The notes under the pieces were generated by a model. That model ran no database searches. It saw nothing but the letters and a program-made list of their open reading frames with translations, and was not told where the DNA came from. A DNA stretch of 20,270 nt from a virus. Position 1 is the first letter of the stretch. Every line of letters begins with the position of its first letter. The position numbers were made by a program, and so were the translations under genes. The stretch spans positions 1-20,270 of IMG/VR virus record IMGVR_UViG_3300025168_000892, one strand, 5' to 3'. Below, in pieces: positions 2 through 17,072 of the stretch.

Positions 2-3000
2 TACAAAAAAACGTTACTTGATCATTACGGTATAACTCAAGTTAGAAAGTCTAGAATTGTTCCTATTCATATTAGATATAAATATGATAAGAATAAAAAA
101 ATGATAACTGCTAAAGTAGATACTATTCAAATGGGATCTGATATGAGTGTATATTTAGAACAGATACCTGTAGCAGATGAGATGACAGATTATGACTCTT
201 TAAATAAAGTTCTTAAAACACAGATTTACAGAAGAGAGAATATAAAGAGAAAAATGCAAGATTCTAAAGGGGCTGAAAGAGATACTTTAAATGATAGGCT
301 TAAAGTTATTAATATGGCTATTAGAAAGTTGCAAGTAAAACAAGATCTAGGGTATGTACTTACTGAGGCTAATAAGGCATTAAAAAAAGCAGAGAAAAAA
401 GTCAGTATAGATGAAAGACGTAAAGCAGATGGTAGCATTAATCCTGACTATCTAAGTAATAGAGAACTTTTAGATTTATATGAAGATTTAAAATTTTATG
501 AGACATTATTAAAATTAGAAGAATTTAAAGAAGATAAAGAATTTAATAAAAAGATTTTCGAGATTAAAAAAGCGGTTGGCCCTATTATTAACTCAATGGC
601 TACTACGATAGAACAAAAATTAATACAAAGAGGTGAAGAAGTTGCAGCGAACCAGGGAGTAAGAGGATTAAGAACTTTTAATACTCAAATAGGATTTGGT
701 ACATCTAATCTGGTAAGTTTATCTAAACAGTCTAATCCATTTATGAGAACTTTATGGGAGACTATGGATAGTGTTAGGATTCTTAAAAATAGATCTACTA
801 AAGCTCTAGCAGAGGAGATATACGATAAACAAGAAGCTATACTTGCTTGGGGAGAAAATAACGGGTATTCAGGAGTTAAGGTCTACGATAAAATACTAAA
901 CGAAGAAACAGGTAATTTATGGGCTAAGTACAGTGCAGAGTTTTGGTCTTTAAGAAAAAAAGCTTTAGAGTCTGACGATCATAAGTGGATGCAAGCTAAC
1001 TATGAGGTAGATGAAGATTATTATAAAAAAGAATTTGCTAAGTGGAGGAAAAATGCATACACAAGAGTAGAAAAAACATATGAAAAATCTGAGTGGACGA
1101 AACAAAAACTTTTATGGGATAAAAAGTATGATGTTAAAACTCATTTTAAAACTGCGTCTATAAATAATGGTGGAATATACTTTTTAAAAGTTAAAGAAGA
1201 GTCTACTCAAAAATACATGACTTCTGAGTATAGAGAAATACAAAGTACACCAGAACTAAAAGATTTTTATGATTTTCATATACAGAAAGTTAGAGAATTT
1301 TCAGATATGTTTGGTATGAAGTTATCTAGAGGGTTTACAGCTAATGTGCATGCAGATATGTTAGATGTGTTAGTCCAAAAAGGATTTAACATGAATAATA
1401 TAACTGAGGCTTTCTTTGATAACCTTCAGATTAGAGAACATGATGTAAGTTTAGGTAAGATAGATCCTAATACAGGTGAGACTATTAGAACTATACCTAA
1501 AATGTATATAGCAGAATTAGTAGACTCTAAAGGAAATAAAGATTCAAGTTTAAAATCTAAAGATTTAGGTAAAAGTTTATTCTTACTGGGTAAGGCTGCA
1601 ATGGAATATCAGTATAATACTGAAGTAATAGATGATATAATGTTATTGGAAACTCTTTTAACAGATAATCTAGTTACTGAAATACCAAGAGGAAATACAT
1701 CTAAAATATTAAGAGATGTTAATGGTAAAGTGCAGGAAGTTATGAAGAACAGTAATTCTGAGATGTTTTCTGATTTCGTTAATATGTATTTATATGGACA
1801 ATCTTTAAAAACTAAAGATAGAAGTAAAAATATTTTTGGAAGAGATATAAGTGTTAATAAAACTTTACTAGGTCTAAAACAGTATCATTCTACTTCTATG
1901 TTAGCATTAAAAGCCCCGGTAGCATTAGGTGCTTTAGGTGCAGGTATGATAAGTTTACAACTACAAGCAGCTAAAGGTATTTTTATAACTAAAGCTAATT
2001 TATTAGCAGCTCAAAAAGCTTTAGTATCAGCAGATCCTAAAATGAGGGCATTAGTAGAACATTTAGATGTATACCAAGATGATAAGTTTGGTATTGTAGG
2101 TAATAAATTATCTGCAAACTATAAAAGTAAACATTTAACAGGAGAGAACTGGTTTATAATGTTAATGTCTGCAGATCGAGCTATAGACGCAGTAGCTTCG
2201 GCTGCTATGACTATGAATTATGGTATAGATGAGAATGGTAAAGTAAAAAGACTTGCAGAGTTACCAGAAGGTACTAAATCTATATGGGAAACTATGCAGT
2301 TTGAAGAAAATCCTAAATGGAAAAGACATGCAGCAATAGACAGGTATAAAACTAAGATTGAAGGTTTAGATGATAAAGGTTTTAGAAGTATTAGAAATAA
2401 AATTAGAGCAGTATCCGATAAAGTTAAAGGAACATTGTCTGATGATGATAAAATGAGAATTAACTCTATTTTAGGTGGTAGATTATTATTACACTACAAG
2501 TCCTGGTTACCAGGAATTGCTATGGAAAGGTTTGGAAGAACTAGATATAATTATATATTAGAGCATTTTGATGAAGGAACTCATAATACTTTTTGGAGTA
2601 ATTTTGGGTCTGACATCTCTCCTGAACAAGCTTTAGATCAAGAAGTGCATATGCATAATTATCTAGGCGCAATTGGTGGAGATCTATTACGTGTTGCAGC
2701 AGATGTGGCTACATTTGGAATGTCTAACAGTTTTAAAATAAAAGAAGGTAAAGCTAAACTTGAATTCGAAAAGTTTATACTAGAACAAGAGGGTAATCCT
2801 GAGTTTGAATATGAGACAGAAGCAGAAAAGGAAGAGTTATTTGAAAAGTTTATAGACTTGAAAAGAGCTAATATGAGAGCTGCAGTAGGAGAAATAAGAG
2901 CCGTATCTTTACTTATGCTACTCATCATGTTGATGGGAGGTGATTGGGACGATGACGGTAAAGTTGATATTAGACAAACTTGGATTGGACGTAAATTATA

Positions 3001-3280
3001 TGCAGTTACAAATAGAATATACAGAGAAACTGCAGTTATTATAGATCCTAGAGAATTTATGAATAGCAGATCAACGTCTGTACCATTAGTAAGTTTAGGC
3101 ACAAATCTTATAAATCTAGTAGCAAATTCTATAGATGAAATTAGAGATGTAACTTTTGGTGAAAACTCTCAATCAGATAGATCAGAGTTTGGATACTATA
3201 CATTTAAATTCTTTCCAGGATTAAATGGTGTTGTTAAAGCTGCTGAGATTTATAGTCAAGACAAGAACGCTAAGTTTTAA
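2..3280 (+). CDS. Large phage protein, 5' end cut by window edge (probable virion-associated protein)
   Basis: The frame is open from the window edge, so the ATG at 101 is only the first internal Met; 1092 residues are visible. I recognise no enzyme family. The first part is charged and helical, with likely coiled coil at about nt 190-590 (Lys/Glu-rich heptads). The middle holds an Ala/Gly/Leu-rich hydrophobic stretch (about nt 1890-1975). Near the C-terminus a hydrophobic run (SLLMLLIMLMGG, about nt 2909-2944) is followed directly by an EF-hand-like loop, DWDDDGKVDIRQ (nt 2942-2977), with Asp at 1, 3, 5 and 9 and Gly at 6. Size, mixed helical and hydrophobic content, and position at the end of a rightward block opposite the replication genes suggest an internal or ejected virion protein; this is inference. 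The frame ends at a TAA 4 bp before the next gene. Confidence 0.8.
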   Translation, partial: YKKTLLDHYGITQVRKSRIVPIHIRYKYDKNKKMITAKVDTIQMGSDMSVYLEQIPVADEMTDYDSLNKVLKTQIYRRENIKRKMQDSKGAERDTLNDRLKVINMAIRKLQVKQDLGYVLTEANKALKKAEKKVSIDERRKADGSINPDYLSNRELLDLYEDLKFYETLLKLEEFKEDKEFNKKIFEIKKAVGPIINSMATTIEQKLIQRGEEVAANQGVRGLRTFNTQIGFGTSNLVSLSKQSNPFMRTLWETMDSVRILKNRSTKALAEEIYDKQEAILAWGENNGYSGVKVYDKILNEETGNLWAKYSAEFWSLRKKALESDDHKWMQANYEVDEDYYKKEFAKWRKNAYTRVEKTYEKSEWTKQKLLWDKKYDVKTHFKTASINNGGIYFLKVKEESTQKYMTSEYREIQSTPELKDFYDFHIQKVREFSDMFGMKLSRGFTANVHADMLDVLVQKGFNMNNITEAFFDNLQIREHDVSLGKIDPNTGETIRTIPKMYIAELVDSKGNKDSSLKSKDLGKSLFLLGKAAMEYQYNTEVIDDIMLLETLLTDNLVTEIPRGNTSKILRDVNGKVQEVMKNSNSEMFSDFVNMYLYGQSLKTKDRSKNIFGRDISVNKTLLGLKQYHSTSMLALKAPVALGALGAGMISLQLQAAKGIFITKANLLAAQKALVSADPKMRALVEHLDVYQDDKFGIVGNKLSANYKSKHLTGENWFIMLMSADRAIDAVASAAMTMNYGIDENGKVKRLAELPEGTKSIWETMQFEENPKWKRHAAIDRYKTKIEGLDDKGFRSIRNKIRAVSDKVKGTLSDDDKMRINSILGGRLLLHYKSWLPGIAMERFGRTRYNYILEHFDEGTHNTFWSNFGSDISPEQALDQEVHMHNYLGAIGGDLLRVAADVATFGMSNSFKIKEGKAKLEFEKFILEQEGNPEFEYETEAEKEELFEKFIDLKRANMRAAVGEIRAVSLLMLLIMLMGGDWDDDGKVDIRQTWIGRKLYAVTNRIYRETAVIIDPREFMNSRSTSVPLVSLGTNLINLVANSIDEIRDVTFGENSQSDRSEFGYYTFKFFPGLNGVVKAAEIYSQDKNAKF

Positions 3281-4025: not shown

Positions 4026-4050
4026 AAGGTGGACCCATGAGGCCCACCTT
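4026..4050. terminator. Bidirectional intrinsic terminator between convergent gene blocks
   Basis: An inverted repeat: AAGGTGGACC (4026-4035), loop CATGA, GGCCCACCTT (4041-4050). Seven outer and two inner pairs flank one A-C mismatch. On the + strand the stem is followed by TTTATTTT; on the minus strand the same stem is followed by TTATATTTTTTT (from the A-tract at 4016-4022). It sits between the stop at 3991 and the opposing stop at 4055, so it can end transcription from both sides. Confidence 0.88.
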
Positions 4051-6059: not shown

Positions 6060-6096
6060 ATATATATTATTTATTGTTATTACTTTAAACATATTA

Positions 6097-6163
6097 GGGG
6101 AGGAATTGTAATTGTTCACAAAGTATAACCGCTGAGTTATTTATTATAATTACTAACCTCCCC
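6097..6163. other. Structured intergenic element with GC-rich stem
   Basis: This lies in the longest gap of the minus-strand train (6060-6176, 117 bp). AGGGGAGG (6096-6103) and CCTCCCCT (6157-6164) form a perfect 8-bp, mostly G-C stem closing about 53 nt of AT-rich sequence. Inside, TTGT (6106-6109) can pair with ACAA (6118-6121) as a small inner hairpin. The spacing and a CTCAGCGGTTA motif on the minus strand recall a tRNA D-arm, but the span is only 67 nt and no anticodon arm or T-arm can be drawn. It may be a leader structure, processing site or small RNA upstream of the exonuclease gene. There is no U-tract, so a terminator is unlikely. Confidence 0.4.
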
Positions 6164-6176
6164 TTCTATGCATCAA

Positions 6177-7361
6177 TTAAACAAGAGCGCCGGCCGCATC
6201 ACCAACCAAGCTGCTCTTCTCAGCAACTTTTATAACGTCTAGTTTAATATCTTTTCTGTCTAAGAGAATTTTAGTCTCTCCATGTGAATTCATATACTTC
6301 ATTATAGATTTATATACTCTATCTAGCATCATCGCTTCTGCTTCTGAGTTTAAAATGCCATCCTTAACAAGGTTAGAAGTTAAGAATTTTATATCATTTA
6401 TATCTCTATAATAATTATTTGTAGAAGTATTCATATACTTATCAAACATCTTTTTAAGAGTTTTAAAAGCTACTTGATTCCACATTTTATTACCTCTCAT
6501 AGAATATGTATGATCATAAAATAATATACTCAACCATGTTTTAGAGCTTTCTATCTTACAATTAGCCATAAGAGTCATCGCTACATTCATATCTTCTTTA
6601 TTTCCTTCAAGCATTTTATCTATTTGAGTATAATTTTCGAAATTTAAAGCTACGGAATCTTCAGCTGTTGCAGTATTAATTACAACATCTGTAGCAAGTA
6701 TATTTATATTACTTTTAAGATCTTTATATTCTTGTATAGATCGTTCTGTAAGGTAGTTCCCACTGTGTACTTCTAAAATATATGGGTCTAACTTTGTCTT
6801 AATATCATCTATAATGTTACTACCATAAAAATAATTTTCTAACTCTATGAAATGCATAGATTCTGTGGTATCCTCTGAATTTGTTAAGGACTCTTTCTGC
6901 CCCATCAAAGATACAAAAACATCGTCAGTGAATTGTGATTTTCTAGATTCAAGTTCTGTAAAGAAACGATCTGCAGGATATAAAGTTATACCGTATCTAT
7001 ATTTAGTTAAACTTTCTAAATATTTATCAGATATAACCCATAGATGTGCTTTATCTTTATCACGTACCACTTTAATTCCATACTTATCTTTTAATATAGC
7101 TACTCGGTCTCTAGATAATGTAAGATTAGGAAATCTATATAAACTTCTAGATTTATTAAAATCTAATTGTTTTTTGCTAGCAGTTTTTAATATGTCTCCT
7201 AAAGCATTAGAGAACTCTGTATGCATGCCTTCAATCGTTCCATTTTTTGAATTACTAAGAATATTACCTAAAATATTTTCTCTTTGTACAATGTCTACGG
7301 TTGCAATTTTATTATAATCATCAACTCGAAAGCAAAGTTTTGAATATTTTATTTTGTCCAT
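6177..7361 (-). CDS. Unrecognised protein, distant paralog of the upstream 341-residue protein
   Basis: A 394-residue protein of unknown family with no membrane segment. Residues about 80-110 (SRDRVAILKDKYGIKVVRDK, then AHLWVISDKY) have the helix-strand-strand pattern of BRCT-like or other small Rossmann-like domains, and match RVKSLLKEHKVTITNDYEKA and DVIITHNS in the neighbouring 341-residue protein. A second shared block is IDKMLEGNKEDMNVAMTLMA here and LRSMLKGGSEEQEIGLSLVP there. The C-terminal third is helical. The leader is AATTAAACAAAAATG. It is the last gene of the block carrying the MoxR ATPase and vWA protein, with 13 bp to its upstream neighbour and 117 bp downstream. It may be a substrate or partner of that ATPase pair; this is inference only. 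Confidence 0.72.
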   Translation of the reverse strand: MDKIKYSKLCFRVDDYNKIATVDIVQRENILGNILSNSKNGTIEGMHTEFSNALGDILKTASKKQLDFNKSRSLYRFPNLTLSRDRVAILKDKYGIKVVRDKDKAHLWVISDKYLESLTKYRYGITLYPADRFFTELESRKSQFTDDVFVSLMGQKESLTNSEDTTESMHFIELENYFYGSNIIDDIKTKLDPYILEVHSGNYLTERSIQEYKDLKSNINILATDVVINTATAEDSVALNFENYTQIDKMLEGNKEDMNVAMTLMANCKIESSKTWLSILFYDHTYSMRGNKMWNQVAFKTLKKMFDKYMNTSTNNYYRDINDIKFLTSNLVKDGILNSEAEAMMLDRVYKSIMKYMNSHGETKILLDRKDIKLDVIKVAEKSSLVGDAAGALV

Positions 7362-7374
7362 TTTTGTTTAATTT

Positions 7375-8400
7375 TTAATTTGTTAAATATTGTCTATACT
7401 CTGGTGCTACCTTTACTTTGAATACAAATATAGATTTATCTCTTATACTTATATCATTCCTACAAAGTAGTTCTATATACTTAAAAGATGCTTTATCTAA
7501 CGTTCCTCTGTTATGTTCTCTCTGAAGTACTTCTGTAGCATTTGAAGTATAAAATCTATTTCTTACATCGTTTGTGTTTTCCCAGTATTTTAAAGCTTTG
7601 TCTTTATTGAAATATCCTTCATTAATTGTTTGATATAATTGCCATACTAGATGTACATTCGTTTCTGAATTAATGGTTGGGACTAAACTTAGTCCAATTT
7701 CTTGCTCTTCACTGCCTCCTTTTAGCATTGATCTTAAATCTTCTAATAAAGAATCTGTTAAGTCTTGCTTAGTAGCAGATAAGTTATCTACTGTTTCTGC
7801 ATTAATAACTTGAACTTCTTTATTTTTAATTTTAGCTCCTAAGTTAATAGTTAAGCCAGGGATTAAGTAAGAAATATGAGGCATAGAGGTATAATTACAA
7901 TTATGAAAATAATCACCATCAACATTAGCATCAGTTGCTACACAATTATTTCCAGTAGATGTATGATAATCTTCAACATAAGTTCTATTATCATTTAAAA
8001 AATACCCACCAGTAATTTGACAAAACATTTTAGTTTTTAAAATACTATGTGGATAAGAATTTGAATCTGTATGTTGTTCTATACTATTATGAGTTATAAT
8101 AACATCAGCTTTTTCATAATCATTTGTTATAGTCACTTTATGCTCCTTCAATAGAGATTTAACTCTATCTATGGGCATATTACAGGAAGGCAGTACAAAT
8201 GCTTTTGATACCTGTGTAAGATCTGTTATAGTTTCTGTTTCAAATAAATCTGCTATATTTACCCATGCTGTGGTATCCTCTGTTAATAAAACTGTCTCTA
8301 CTGAGTATTTGTAAGGTATGCCTACGTTTACCTGATCTACAATACCTAAAGTAGAAACAGCTCCAGGATCTATGTCCTGGAATACTGTTTTACTTGCCAT
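7375..8400 (-). CDS. Unrecognised protein, distant paralog of the downstream 394-residue protein
   Basis: A 341-residue protein with no family I can name. The N-terminal about 85 residues look beta-rich. Residues about 95-120 (IDRVKSLLKEHKVTITNDYE, then KADVIITHNS) show the alternating helix/strand segment shared with the next gene. A central Gly/Asn/His-rich part follows (TGGYFLNDNRTYVEDYHTST, NVDGDYFHNCNYTS). The C-terminal helical part starts with LEDLRSMLKGGSEEQEIGLS, again shared with the neighbour. The gene lies 2 bp after the small membrane-protein gene and 13 bp before the paralog, within the MoxR/vWA block. No catalytic signature is evident; a structural or target-recognition role is equally possible. 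Confidence 0.72.
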   Translation of the reverse strand: MASKTVFQDIDPGAVSTLGIVDQVNVGIPYKYSVETVLLTEDTTAWVNIADLFETETITDLTQVSKAFVLPSCNMPIDRVKSLLKEHKVTITNDYEKADVIITHNSIEQHTDSNSYPHSILKTKMFCQITGGYFLNDNRTYVEDYHTSTGNNCVATDANVDGDYFHNCNYTSMPHISYLIPGLTINLGAKIKNKEVQVINAETVDNLSATKQDLTDSLLEDLRSMLKGGSEEQEIGLSLVPTINSETNVHLVWQLYQTINEGYFNKDKALKYWENTNDVRNRFYTSNATEVLQREHNRGTLDKASFKYIELLCRNDISIRDKSIFVFKVKVAPEYRQYLTN

Positions 8401-8402
8401 AA

Positions 8403-8639
8403 TTATTCGTTATCTAGTTTAACATCTACTATTGCATCATCTAAGTAATCAAACCTATCCTTAATATATAAAAACAATGCTACTAATAAGAATACTAAAG
8501 TGTTTTCTATAGAGTGTGTTAAATAAGAATATACAGAGTAGACTACTAATACAATAAAGGGTCTAACTTCTAAAAGAAGCATAAATAACATACCTATCAG
8601 TGATGCTACATATTTACATGTGTTTTTTATTTTTTCCAT
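8403..8639 (-). CDS. Small membrane protein in the MoxR/vWA block
   Basis: A 78-residue protein with hydrophobic segments at about 10-40 (VASLIGMLFMLLLEV then FIVLVVYSVYSYL) and 47-59 (TLVFLLVALFLYI), so two or three membrane passes, and an acidic C-terminal tail (DYLDDAIVDVKLDNE). The start is preceded by TAAATAAATAAAAAATG, and the gap to the MoxR ATPase gene upstream is 7 bp. I know no family for it. Its place between the AAA+ ATPase and two paralogous unknown proteins suggests the system may act at the membrane. Confidence 0.7.
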   Translation of the reverse strand: MEKIKNTCKYVASLIGMLFMLLLEVRPFIVLVVYSVYSYLTHSIENTLVFLLVALFLYIKDRFDYLDDAIVDVKLDNE

Positions 8640-8646
8640 TTTTTAT

Positions 8647-9822
8647 TTATTTAATTGTCATTTTAATTATTTCAGGATTCATCATTAATTTAGAGAATTT
8701 CTTCTTGTTACCATTAAAGATAGTTCTTACAACTAAGTATTTAAGATCATTAGTAAAATAATCCTTAGTACATAGGTCCGTAATTCTTTCAGTAATTTTA
8801 GGTGTAATTGTATTATCTTGAGAATATACAACTGCAAAATTAGAAACTCTAGTTGCTAATATACTTGCAATATCCGCTCTATAACTATCACCAGTACCTG
8901 TACTTTTAGATAATTTACCAAGAATTTCTCCTTCTCCTAATAATAACTCTTTTGGTGTTACCAATAGATCTAATTTATTATTAATAAAAGTAGTAAACAT
9001 ACTAGCAAATTCATTACCTACAGATCCTTCACCTATCATTTGAATTAAAGGTAATTGGTCGTTAAATTTAGGTATACTTGATATACTGTTAAAGAACGTT
9101 GATATAGAACGAGCGTTAGTCTCTTGAGTTACTAATTCTGGGTGTAATAATAAGAAATTAATACATCTAGAATCTAATCCTTCAGACTCTGCCCATCTAG
9201 CCCATACATCTACATCAAACTTTAAGTTAGCTGTTATGTACCTAGTCTTTTGAGCTGAATCTACACTATTAACCATATAATCTCCATTATCAGGATTAGC
9301 AGTTAATATAATATGCCAGTCTTTAGGAAGACTCCAAGAAATATAAGTCTGTCTATCCACTAATTCCATACATGCTTGAATAAATCTTACATCAGCTCTA
9401 TTCCAGTCATCTAGAATTAATAAACCTCCGTCTTTTTTATCAGCAATCCATTCAGGTGCTGCATACCCCATTCTAGATTTACCAGTAGTTAGATAACCTT
9501 TAGTAGCATGCGCCTGTACAGCAATCTCATCTACCCATTTACCTTTCTTCTTACCAGCTACTTCTATGTACATTTGATATTGTTTAATAGGAAAACCTAC
9601 TAAATCACCTAACTCTTCGATCTGAGCTAGATTTAATTTTACTACGTCTAATCCATGGTCTTTAGCCATAGTCATTACGGAAGTGGTCTTTCCAATTCCG
9701 GACTCTCCAACAACTTCTACCGCTACCGGGTTCTTACCGTTAGATTGTAAGAATCTGTTGTTACTAATAATATGACCTACAAAATCTTGTAGTTCATCGA
9801 TGTTTAAATTTACTTCGCTCAT
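8647..9822 (-). CDS. MoxR-type AAA+ ATPase
   Basis: A 391-residue AAA+ ATPase of the MoxR/AAA_5 group (relatives include MoxR, CbbQ, NorQ, GvpN and RavA), which act as remodelling chaperones together with vWA-domain partners. Walker A is GESGIGKTT (39-47), Walker B LLILDDWNRAD (134-144) with D138/D139, sensor 1 the Asn in LTANPDN (173-179), and a likely arginine finger region SAQKTRYIT (189-197). The N-terminal short helix before Walker A and the C-terminal helical lid, rich in SKSTGTGDSYRADIASILAT-like segments, fit the group. The vWA/metallopeptidase gene lies 20 bp upstream, the usual MoxR-vWA pairing. The start has a leader of three TTAAACAA copies. Substrate unknown. Confidence 0.9.
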   Translation of the reverse strand: MSEVNLNIDELQDFVGHIISNNRFLQSNGKNPVAVEVVGESGIGKTTSVMTMAKDHGLDVVKLNLAQIEELGDLVGFPIKQYQMYIEVAGKKKGKWVDEIAVQAHATKGYLTTGKSRMGYAAPEWIADKKDGGLLILDDWNRADVRFIQACMELVDRQTYISWSLPKDWHIILTANPDNGDYMVNSVDSAQKTRYITANLKFDVDVWARWAESEGLDSRCINFLLLHPELVTQETNARSISTFFNSISSIPKFNDQLPLIQMIGEGSVGNEFASMFTTFINNKLDLLVTPKELLLGEGEILGKLSKSTGTGDSYRADIASILATRVSNFAVVYSQDNTITPKITERITDLCTKDYFTNDLKYLVVRTIFNGNKKKFSKLMMNPEIIKMTIK

Positions 9823-9846
9823 TTGTTTAATTGTTTAATTGTTTAA
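9823..9846 (-). promoter_or_regulatory. Triplicated TTAAACAA translation leader of the MoxR gene
   Basis: Three perfect tandem copies of the 8-bp unit TTAAACAA (minus strand) stand directly before the MoxR ATG; the first overlaps the stop codon of the vWA gene. One copy of this A-rich leader is the Bacteroidota-type substitute for a Shine-Dalgarno site, seen singly before other genes here (7361, 11289). Extra copies may raise initiation or result from slippage. Confidence 0.6.
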
Positions 9847-11033
9847 TTTAATTTGATTTTTAACCCCGGAAGGTCATCGTTTATATTACTTCTTGAACTG
9901 TGTACCCATAAAGTATTTTGAGGACAGTCTTCTGGTGTGTTTGCTTCACCATCTGTTAGATATATAAGAGCTGTATAATTATTCTTAGGCGCATTATAAT
10001 GATCTATTACAGGTTGGAAAATAGTACCACCTCTACCTTTAATGTTCCAATCTTGATTAGGCTTAAAGTCTGATATATCATTTATCTCTGTATCACACTG
10101 AACTACTGTAATACGATGTCCAGTTTTATGCATATGATATATTTCATTCATAAATTCTTTTAACTCCTCTGTACAAACAGATGCTGATGTGTCAACTCCA
10201 ACACATATATGATTCTTGAATTTAATCTTCATACCAGGATTAGCAGAATATCTTTTATTCTCTTTTCTTCTGATTTTCTTTGTATACACTTTAGTAGCAT
10301 TTCCAATAAATCTTTTTAGATATGCTTTCCAGTTAAATTTAGGAGGCTCTACATTAAATAGTCTTTCTAGAATTTCTTTTAACTCTCCCGGAACAGTTCC
10401 ATGCTTCTTTTGTATAACATCTGCAGTTTCCTTCATCTGATGTTCATATTGTTTTTGAACTAACTTCTTATCAGCTTCAGGAAGGTCTTCAATTTCAGTC
10501 CAAGTTTTGTGAGAATCATCATCACCTCCTGGTTTACCCGCTCCTTTATTACCTAACATTTCTTCTAAGTTTGGACATTTGCCCTCTCCACCTCCATTAC
10601 CGTTACAATCCTTCTCGAGTAATTTATAGTAAACATCAGTACCGGCTTTAACAGGTAGATCTAACTCAGGAAATGTTGCAAATGTAATACCTCCATCGGG
10701 TAGCATATCTGAATCTATATATTGGTTGATTTCCATATCCGCCGCAATATTAAAAAGTTTAAAGTTAGTATACCTATCCCTCATTAACAAGTGTCCAAAA
10801 GCTATATGTAATAACTCGTGTTTTAATAGACCCTGTTGATGTTTATCAGATAGATCTAAAAAGAACTCTTTATTAATAGCTAACTGCATTCCTATACCAT
10901 TTTTACTAACACCTGCTGTAGGTAGATCTTTTCTAAAAACTTTGTTTAGTCCTATTAGAAAGATACCATAGAAGGGCTCGCTAAATATCAATGTTTTTGA
11001 TATTCTACTTAATTGATCTTTTTCTTTACTCAT
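9843..11033 (-). CDS. Metallopeptidase-like domain plus vWA (DUF2201-type) protein
   Basis: A 396-residue two-domain protein. The N-terminal domain carries a zinc-protease signature, HELLHIAFGH (H72-E73, H76, H81), and NIAADMEIN (95-103), as in the putative metallopeptidase domain DUF2201_N. A Gly/Asp-rich linker (about 140-180) and helices follow, then a vWA-like domain with a complete MIDAS: D281-T-S283-A-S285, T337 in GRGGTIF and D361 in YLTDGEA. DUF2201 proteins pair with MoxR ATPases, and the MoxR gene lies just downstream. I chose the ATG at 11033, which overlaps the zinc-ribbon gene's stop by 8 bp and has an A-rich leader; in-frame ATGs at 11051 and 11099 lie inside that gene. Peptidase activity is a prediction; the domain may serve only for binding. 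Confidence 0.88.
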   Translation of the reverse strand: MSKEKDQLSRISKTLIFSEPFYGIFLIGLNKVFRKDLPTAGVSKNGIGMQLAINKEFFLDLSDKHQQGLLKHELLHIAFGHLLMRDRYTNFKLFNIAADMEINQYIDSDMLPDGGITFATFPELDLPVKAGTDVYYKLLEKDCNGNGGGEGKCPNLEEMLGNKGAGKPGGDDDSHKTWTEIEDLPEADKKLVQKQYEHQMKETADVIQKKHGTVPGELKEILERLFNVEPPKFNWKAYLKRFIGNATKVYTKKIRRKENKRYSANPGMKIKFKNHICVGVDTSASVCTEELKEFMNEIYHMHKTGHRITVVQCDTEINDISDFKPNQDWNIKGRGGTIFQPVIDHYNAPKNNYTALIYLTDGEANTPEDCPQNTLWVHSSRSNINDDLPGLKIKLN

Positions 11034-11289
11034 TGTATTTTCTTTTTGCATCAGATCGATCCTCCTCGTGAGATTCTCTCTTTTGCTGTTTATATTCATA
11101 TTCTAGTTCTGGTTCTTCAAAGAATTCTTCACAGTCTTCACATACAAATCCCTCTAGAGGTTCTGCATGATCCAAACAGTCTATGTCTGAACATATACCA
11201 TTTAAGATTGGTGCGTCACAGCAATAGCTGGGTCCGTCTTCATTATCTGTGTATTCTGCCCCACAGCAAGGGCTTACTAAATCTGGCAT
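11026..11289 (-). CDS. Small zinc-ribbon-like acidic protein
   Basis: An 87-residue protein with nine cysteines in the first 58 residues, arranged as paired knuckles: SPCCGAEY, SYCCDAPI, GICSDIDC and GFVCEDCEEFF, typical of one or two zinc ribbons. The C-terminal third is a highly charged helix (EYEYKQQKRESHEEDRSDAK). The leader TTAATTAAACAAAAATG comes right after the hairpin terminator, so this is the first gene of the MoxR/vWA block and should have its own promoter or depend on read-through. It overlaps the vWA gene's start by 8 bp. Function unknown; a nucleic-acid or protein adaptor is the usual role for such ribbons. Confidence 0.72.
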   Translation of the reverse strand: MPDLVSPCCGAEYTDNEDGPSYCCDAPILNGICSDIDCLDHAEPLEGFVCEDCEEFFEEPELEYEYKQQKRESHEEDRSDAKRKYNE

Positions 11290-11303: not shown

Positions 11304-11327
11304 AAAGGGACCCTTTCGGATCCCTTT
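11304..11327 (-). terminator. Intrinsic terminator after the nuclease gene
   Basis: AAAGGGACCC (11304-11313), loop TTTC, GGATCCCTTT (11318-11327): seven outer pairs, a C-A mismatch and two inner pairs. On the minus strand it is followed by TTTTTAATT. It begins 3 bp after the stop at 11331 and ends 14 bp before the next start, splitting the minus-strand train into two transcription blocks. The + strand side lacks a good U-tract. Confidence 0.8.
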
Positions 11328-16562: not shown

Positions 16563-17072
16563 TTATTCTATTCTAGACCAATTTGCTACTCCCCCTCCCA
16601 ATCTATCTTCAGGTCTCTGATCTTCTATTGGTTCCTCATCTCCTAATAATTGTTTTATATAGGTATTTGCTTCTTCAATTTTAGTCAATCTATCTTGAAA
16701 GCTTTCTATAGTCTTTTCTAAGGTTTTTGATACACCTAAACTAGAATCTCCAGGCTCTCCTTTTAAACCTTGTTCACCTTGTGGTCCAGGATTCCCTTGT
16801 TCTCCTTGGATACCATCTTCGCCTTGAATACCTTGAGGTCCTTGTTGGCCAGTAAATCCAGCTAATCCTTCCTTGCCATCAACGCCATCAACGCCATCTG
16901 CACCATTGCTTCCATGCAAACCATTTTTACCGTCTTTACCATCTTTACCATCTTTACCTTTTAAAGAAGTGTTTTTTACATTAGATACAATATTATTCTC
17001 TATTTGAGATGCTATATACATACCTGCTACAACCCCTACTACTAGGCTGACTATTATTACTACTATTTCCAT
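16563..17072 (-). CDS. Membrane-anchored collagen-like protein
   Basis: A 169-residue protein: one N-terminal membrane helix (VVIIVSLVVGVVAGMYIA, about 4-21), a short polar segment, then 24 uninterrupted Gly-X-Y triplets (G39 to about S110), beginning with GKDGKDGKDGKN and later PQGIQGEDGIQGEQG. A predicted coiled coil (about 115-143, TLEKTIESFQDRLTKIEEAN) follows, then an acidic tail. Collagen-like runs form triple helices and are usually found in phage tail fibres; here the repeat is tied to a membrane anchor and lies in the replication block beside the DnaB-like helicase. A trimeric membrane-bound protein is the straightforward prediction; its task is unknown. Confidence 0.82.
   Translation of the reverse strand: MEIVVIIVSLVVGVVAGMYIASQIENNIVSNVKNTSLKGKDGKDGKDGKNGLHGSNGADGVDGVDGKEGLAGFTGQQGPQGIQGEDGIQGEQGNPGPQGEQGLKGEPGDSSLGVSKTLEKTIESFQDRLTKIEEANTYIKQLLGDEEPIEDQRPEDRLGGGVANWSRIE
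16926..16958 (-). repeat. 9-bp tandem repeat in the collagen-like gene
   Basis: Near-identical 9-bp units (TTTACCATC on the + strand) encode the first Gly-Lys-Asp triplets. A similar run of GCCATCAAC units stands at 16875-16901 and encodes Gly-Val-Asp triplets. Such runs can expand or contract by slippage. Confidence 0.6.

Follow-up and report, generated by a model that had tools for sequence, protein, structure and literature searches.

We analysed a 20,270-nucleotide stretch of viral DNA (IMG/VR record IMGVR_UViG_3300025168_000892, positions 1 to 20,270; hereafter the window), with attention to a cassette of six genes that lie in a row on its minus strand between 6177 and 11289. An initial annotation had proposed that this cassette encodes a vWA protein and a MoxR-type AAA+ ATPase, together with a zinc ribbon, a membrane protein, and two large unknowns, and that it acts at the membrane, where it would remodel a host or virion complex. 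The cassette is real: all six genes are present on the same strand, separated by gaps of 20, 7, 2, and 13 bp and by one overlap. In the order of transcription, the genes are as follows.

11026..11289, minus strand: small Cys-rich (zinc-ribbon-like) protein of 87 amino acids (aa); syntenic in a clade of relatives that carry only U341; outside the core
9843..11033, minus strand: vWA protein, homologue of N4 gp25, with an N-terminal DUF2201_N HExxH domain and a C-terminal DUF2201 vWA domain with full MIDAS (metal ion-dependent adhesion site); from Pfam, PHROG, and motifs
8647..9822, minus strand: MoxR/midasin-type AAA+ ATPase, N4 gp24-like, with Walker A GESGIGKT, Walker B LILDD, and sensor 1 LTANPDNG; from PHROG
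8403..8639, minus strand: 78-aa membrane protein, accessory, known from the window and one relative (L001) alone
7375..8400, minus strand: U341, partner protein; the predicted structure shows a BRCT-like alpha/beta domain plus a helical one
6177..7361, minus strand: U394, homologue of U341 with the same architecture; the SSB-like C-terminal tip of its relatives is lost here

The core of the cassette consists of four genes, namely those for the vWA protein, the AAA+ ATPase, U341, and U394. The latter two form a partner pair that was previously unnamed.

The vWA protein matched the Pfam families PF13203 (1.8e-17) and PF09967 (3.1e-15) as well as phrog_1314 (1.8e-65), and its MIDAS residues are D303/S305/S307, T359, and D383. 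The AAA+ protein matched phrog_1297 (6.3e-31); its Pfam match to AAA_5 was sub-threshold only, and a search for PF07726 (AAA_3) left it unmatched. The HELLHxxxxH, MIDAS (DTSAS..T..D), Walker A/B, and sensor 1 motifs are kept in at least 97% of the relatives (n = 150/130). These matches and conserved motifs bear out the initial assignment of a HExxH plus vWA protein with complete MIDAS and of a MoxR-type ATPase. The vWA reading frame is open from 11099, and the relatives start at MRTxQDQLSRISK, which corresponds to window residue 23. On this comparison, the ATG at 11033 is the most likely start codon, so that the overlap with the zinc-ribbon gene would shrink from 74 to about 8 bp. The DUF2201 vWA/HExxH family of PHROG 1314 goes under 'HNH endonuclease' in PHROGs and in many phage records; this label is probably an annotation error, since neither Pfam nor the motifs support such an enzyme.

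The N-terminal domain also opens a reading of the cassette as a device for regulated proteolysis, in which the HExxH domain would be an active metalloprotease fed by the AAA+ protein, with U341 and U394 as substrates or adaptors. Not only HExxHxxxxH but also N117/D121 is kept in at least 97% of the relatives, and HExxH is found in 8/8 distant phage vWA proteins. The activity of DUF2201_N is, however, unproven, and the domain is termed 'putative' in Pfam; we regard this reading as unlikely.

In five examined relatives, group I introns lie where the vWA and AAA+ frames are broken up or set apart. Rfam located these introns, in stretches that hold the vWA and AAA+ genes, at the following positions.

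L089, 4591-4856 and 5876-6176: group I intron
L166, 2990-3225: group I intron
L120, 2833-3069: group I intron
L059, 2920-3156: group I intron
L131, 4756-5048: group I intron

Their presence at the two genes suggests that the genes are conserved and needed. The vWA genes of L094, L098, and L107 carry further inserts of 0.9-1.1 kb that have no Rfam match.

The linkage of U341 and U394 to this pair was determined by querying IMG/VR with the U394 and U341 family alignments, separately from the motor (vWA and AAA+), and by a reverse search with vWA. Among the loci found by the U families alone, the vWA and AAA+ genes lay directly upstream in all 138 with enough upstream sequence, at an AAA+ to U gap of at most 100 bp in 137 of them, and a U gene followed AAA+ in 54/54 loci found by vWA alone; near-duplicates inflate these counts, as the 145 U proteins form 87 clusters when grouped at 90% identity and 47 when grouped at 70%. 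At no testable locus (0 of 138) did the unknowns occur without MoxR/vWA; their wide occurrence without it would have been a refutation by the terms of the initial annotation. The U matches were restricted to the cassette locus in 18 longer virus records, and the genes are tightly packed, with a median spacing of 1 bp between AAA+ and U341 and of −4 bp between U341 and U394. U341 and U394 are thus dedicated partners of the MoxR/vWA pair, as had been claimed for the two unknowns. The same claim fails for the membrane protein, which is present in the window and L001 only.

The relatives come from uncultured viruses and are known as IMG/VR contigs, which in many cases span 60-136 kb. By tblastn, the vWA protein matched 350 sequenced phage records, Schitoviridae among them, and neither U394 nor U341 found a match in cultured phages. 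No relative of U394 was found in 84,980 bacterial and archaeal species genomes. The window U394, used as the sole query against viral contigs, is too diverged and found no match. In Moorella, Alteromonas, and other phages, the third gene, next to the pair, gave no match to the U profiles, and two such genes that were tested had no Pfam family.

U341 and U394 matched no Pfam or PHROG family, and their profiles matched no PDB sequence. The two are paralogous, as had been proposed: profile-profile comparison by hhalign aligned about 270 columns at an E-value of 3.3e-6. AlphaFold models were obtained with a pLDDT (predicted local distance difference test) of 88.3 for U341 and 79.6 for U394. In Foldseek searches against PDB, the best local matches of U341 were PARP1 BRCT (prob 0.99 and 0.94), MCPH1, RFC1, Sir4, and BRCT domains of bacterial ligases, and the best-probability match of U394 was also PARP1 BRCT (prob 0.63). 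In a viral structure library, U341 was matched over its whole length by three proteins from two phages (E 3e-6 to 2e-5), followed by BRCT-bearing NAD-ligases and a phage BRCT protein. The models suggest that the U proteins consist of a degenerate BRCT-like domain, not a proven BRCT, and a helical domain.

Sequences diverge faster in the U proteins than in the motor: U341 of the window is about 36% identical to its relatives, compared with about 72% for vWA plus AAA+. Such divergence is what a counter-defence machine might show, one that takes apart or cleaves an antiviral complex of the host and in which U provides the targeting, and MoxR-vWA pairs do occur in bacterial conflict systems (PMC7159879). 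A housekeeping role nevertheless fits better with the universal retention of the cassette in the sampled clade, with the core status of the pair in N4-like phages (PMC4193335), and with the group I introns at vWA and AAA+, so that counter-defence appears improbable.

Three architectures were distinguished. Type I (U394-only) has the order small U, vWA, AAA+, U394, where the small U of about 140 aa is related to the helical part of U394; type II (U341-only) has vWA, AAA+, U341; and type III (tandem), to which the window belongs, has vWA, AAA+, U341, U394. In a tree of concatenated vWA and AAA+, the window is sister to type II (100/99), and both are nested with type III (100/100). On the simplest reading, the U341-U394 tandem appears to be ancestral in the clade of the window, type II, and type III; type II has lost U394, and the window retains it.

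The remaining two genes of the row lie outside the core. The distance from AAA+ to the U gene is less than 150 bp in 202 of 207 relatives, and no relative but L001, a near-identical contig, shares the accessory membrane gene of the window. The predicted two or three membrane passes held in part: two hydrophobic stretches are seen, but only the first exceeds a 19-residue mean of 1.6. The zinc ribbon was recognised just upstream of the cassette in the U341-only clade and the window, and was not detected in U394-only loci of the first scan. Of the six genes whose co-occurrence in relatives was in question, vWA, AAA+, and U do occur together, whereas the membrane gene does not and the zinc ribbon does only in part. 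The membrane gene, and the zinc ribbon beyond the clade of the window, type II, and type III, are not part of the core. The view taken in the initial annotation, remodelling of a membrane or virion complex with the 78-aa protein as anchor, draws on the membrane gene inside the window operon, and the literature links E. coli RavA-ViaA to respiratory enzymes and the inner membrane. Because that gene is confined to the window and one relative, action 'at the membrane' is unsupported. A virion complex as the target fares no better, as the cassette is linked to no virion gene and the genes that constantly adjoin it serve replication and recombination. We consider this view highly improbable.

A further gene bears on metal or cofactor insertion of the chelatase or NorQ/NorD kind, for which the client could be a neighbouring radical SAM enzyme. 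This gene, which is spore-photoproduct-lyase (SPL)-like (PF20903, 8.7e-29; for example L002:7135-7989 and L205:10345-11178), adjoins the cassette upstream in 33 of 43 U341-only loci and downstream in 6 of 34 tandem loci, and the conserved HExxH of the vWA protein would suit such a role. It is missing, however, from all 59 U394-only loci and from the window, so it is not an obligate client, and metal insertion seems quite unlikely.

The surroundings of the cassette hold genes for an SF2 helicase, DnaB, Sak4, an SSB-like protein, primase, an SbcD-like exonuclease, a resolvase, and FEN. The window DnaB and primase have their best matches in gut crAss-like phages at about 30-36% identity, the primase matches also including Flavobacterium, Bacteroides, and Cellulophaga phages, and the sole match of a 1059-aa protein at 101-3280 is crAss-like phage cr108_1. 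Judged by its replication proteins, with capsid and terminase genes lying outside the window, the virus is classified as an environmental, uncultured crAss-like phage (Crassvirales). In the gut crAss phage cr10_1 (L240:6596-8726), an AAA_5 ATPase and a DUF7192 protein lie directly upstream of primase. They were rejected as a second vWA-AAA+ pair, because the DUF7192 partner has no recognised vWA domain, and are kept as a possible parallel only. Among the replication genes of the window, at 16563-17072 on the minus strand, is a 169-aa protein with a collagen-like Gly-X-Y stretch after an N-terminal hydrophobic segment.

The C-terminal tails of U394 were also inspected. In type I phages, [DE]WF after an acidic linker ends 50 of 54 distinct U394 tails, and no other protein in the type I loci examined carried this tag. 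Several type III U394 proteins end in DDLPF. A survey of 2190 distinct open reading frames longer than 120 aa in the relatives' loci found the SSB-like terminus [DE]..PF in two families only, a 263-aa SSB-like protein (21) and type III U394 (7). The predicted fold, the tails, and the neighbours suggest that the U proteins are DNA-replication helpers and not parts of a membrane system.

We propose that the AAA+ protein would form a ring and that the vWA protein would serve as its co-chaperone, with a Mg-loaded MIDAS that may grip an acidic residue or peptide and a metallopeptidase-like N-terminal domain. The duplicates U341 and U394, BRCT-like and helical, would be dedicated adaptors or clients of ring and vWA; it is plausible to call them clients. 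Driven by ATP, the ring could then remodel the U protein at a complex for DNA replication or recombination, whether by loading it there, releasing it, or folding it anew. The SSB-like tip of U394 in many relatives may dock on replication proteins that bind SSB tips, or may feed vWA and AAA+. Here we infer both the formation of a complex and its target. A ternary vWA-AAA+-U unit as such is, in our estimate, probable. That it is a dedicated phage machine, with U as adaptor or client, which acts in phage DNA metabolism, has in our judgement an even chance of being right. The fullest version, a MoxR-vWA remodeller of the replisome or of recombination in environmental crAss-like phages, in which a duplicated BRCT-like protein, SSB-mimicking at its tail in many members, serves as client or adaptor, is tentative and rather doubtful.

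Several observations weigh against the proposed machine. The neighbouring genes may reflect only the timing of expression. Cultured phages have the vWA-ATPase pair without U, so the pair can work without it. The window U394 has no SSB-like tip and ends in GDAAGALV, about two-thirds of the distinct U394 tails in U341-U394 tandem phages have none either, and no database match establishes that the 263-aa 'SSB' is one, two members weakly touching DUF669. As for the fold, no Foldseek match of U341 or U394 in PDB had E <0.001, every one being >0.05, and Pfam BRCT (PF00533) was found in 1 of 50 U394 members (0.0094) and 0 of 30 U341 members; the BRCT assignment therefore rests on predicted local structure.

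Two non-coding features flank the cassette.

6082..6182, minus strand: conserved hairpin element, lying between the cassette and the gene for the FEN exonuclease and consisting of GTTTAATTGAT(T)GCATA, a variable G-rich stem-loop, and TATGTTTAA
11304..11327, minus strand: hairpin with a 10-bp stem and a GAAA loop, located between the gene for the Holliday junction resolvase and the cassette (z −4.4)

The gap at 6060-6176, initially described as structured, is strongly so (z −3.9) and conserved in relatives. The flanks of its element are nearly invariant, the loop is very variable in length, and the G-rich stem shows compensatory changes in 5 of 13 pairs. The element recurs at L019:11434-11532, L031:9980-10052, and others; of the 6 longer type II records that were searched, 5 contained a single strong copy each. 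It had no Rfam match and went undetected in the loci of types I and III. It could be a terminator or processing signal, a phage promoter, or a replication element. The feature at 11304-11327, annotated initially as a terminator, is a real hairpin but was not called by a terminator scan. Elsewhere, at 4026-4050 on the minus strand, a strong terminator-like hairpin (11 pairs, T tract) ends the minus-strand block and faces plus-strand genes.

Among known systems, E. coli RavA-ViaA combines a MoxR AAA+ protein with a vWA co-factor, as in the window. It differs in its clients, which are respiratory enzymes and the inner membrane, and ViaA is not known to have a DUF2201_N HExxH domain. The closest solved AAA+ protein by sequence is midasin/Rea1 (E 1e-7, residues 29-77), the model for MIDAS-mediated remodelling of nucleoprotein complexes. 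Midasin is one giant chain, whereas the window system consists of separate small proteins and has no ribosome link. The whole-length fold matches of U341 are A0A8S5TKB2 and A0A8S5TL70 (Podoviridae sp. ctz6O13) and A0A6J5LXR8 (prob 1.00), uncharacterised proteins with 12-14% identity and low global TM-scores (0.27-0.37); ctz6O13 has two copies in one phage, as the window has U341 and U394.

Bacterial MoxR-vWA ternary systems have a conserved third protein beside the pair, and the authors who described them proposed a role for vWA in capturing a peptide and for AAA+ in remodelling the complex (PMC7159879). Like those systems, whose third components are VMAP, iSTAND, FtsH, or beta-propeller proteins, the cassette joins MoxR and vWA to a dedicated third component, encoded with the pair at every testable locus (138/138, 54/54), and is a ternary system in the general sense. 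U matched none of these components in Pfam or PHROGs; the third component here is BRCT-like and helical and lies in a phage replication block, and the vWA protein is of the DUF2201 type with HExxH. In phage N4, gp24 is an AAA ATPase and gp25 a vWFA protein, both annotated with unknown function (PMC2784036); the pair is core in N4-like phages and is on middle transcripts in N4 (PMC4193335). These proteins (PHROG 1297/1314) are homologous to the window AAA+ and vWA, their genes are adjacent in most phages, and the AAA+ protein of one relative matches Vibrio N4-like phages. The order in N4-type phages is often ATPase then vWA, the reverse of the window, and U341/U394 are unmatched in N4-type and other cultured phages. 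In one lineage, a widespread pair is thus tied to partners dedicated to it. The fold predicted for these partners, their tails, and their neighbours point towards DNA replication or repair and offer a concrete, testable way into the function of the pair. If true, the replisome or recombination remodeller would give the gp24/gp25 core pair of N4 its first assignable pathway.

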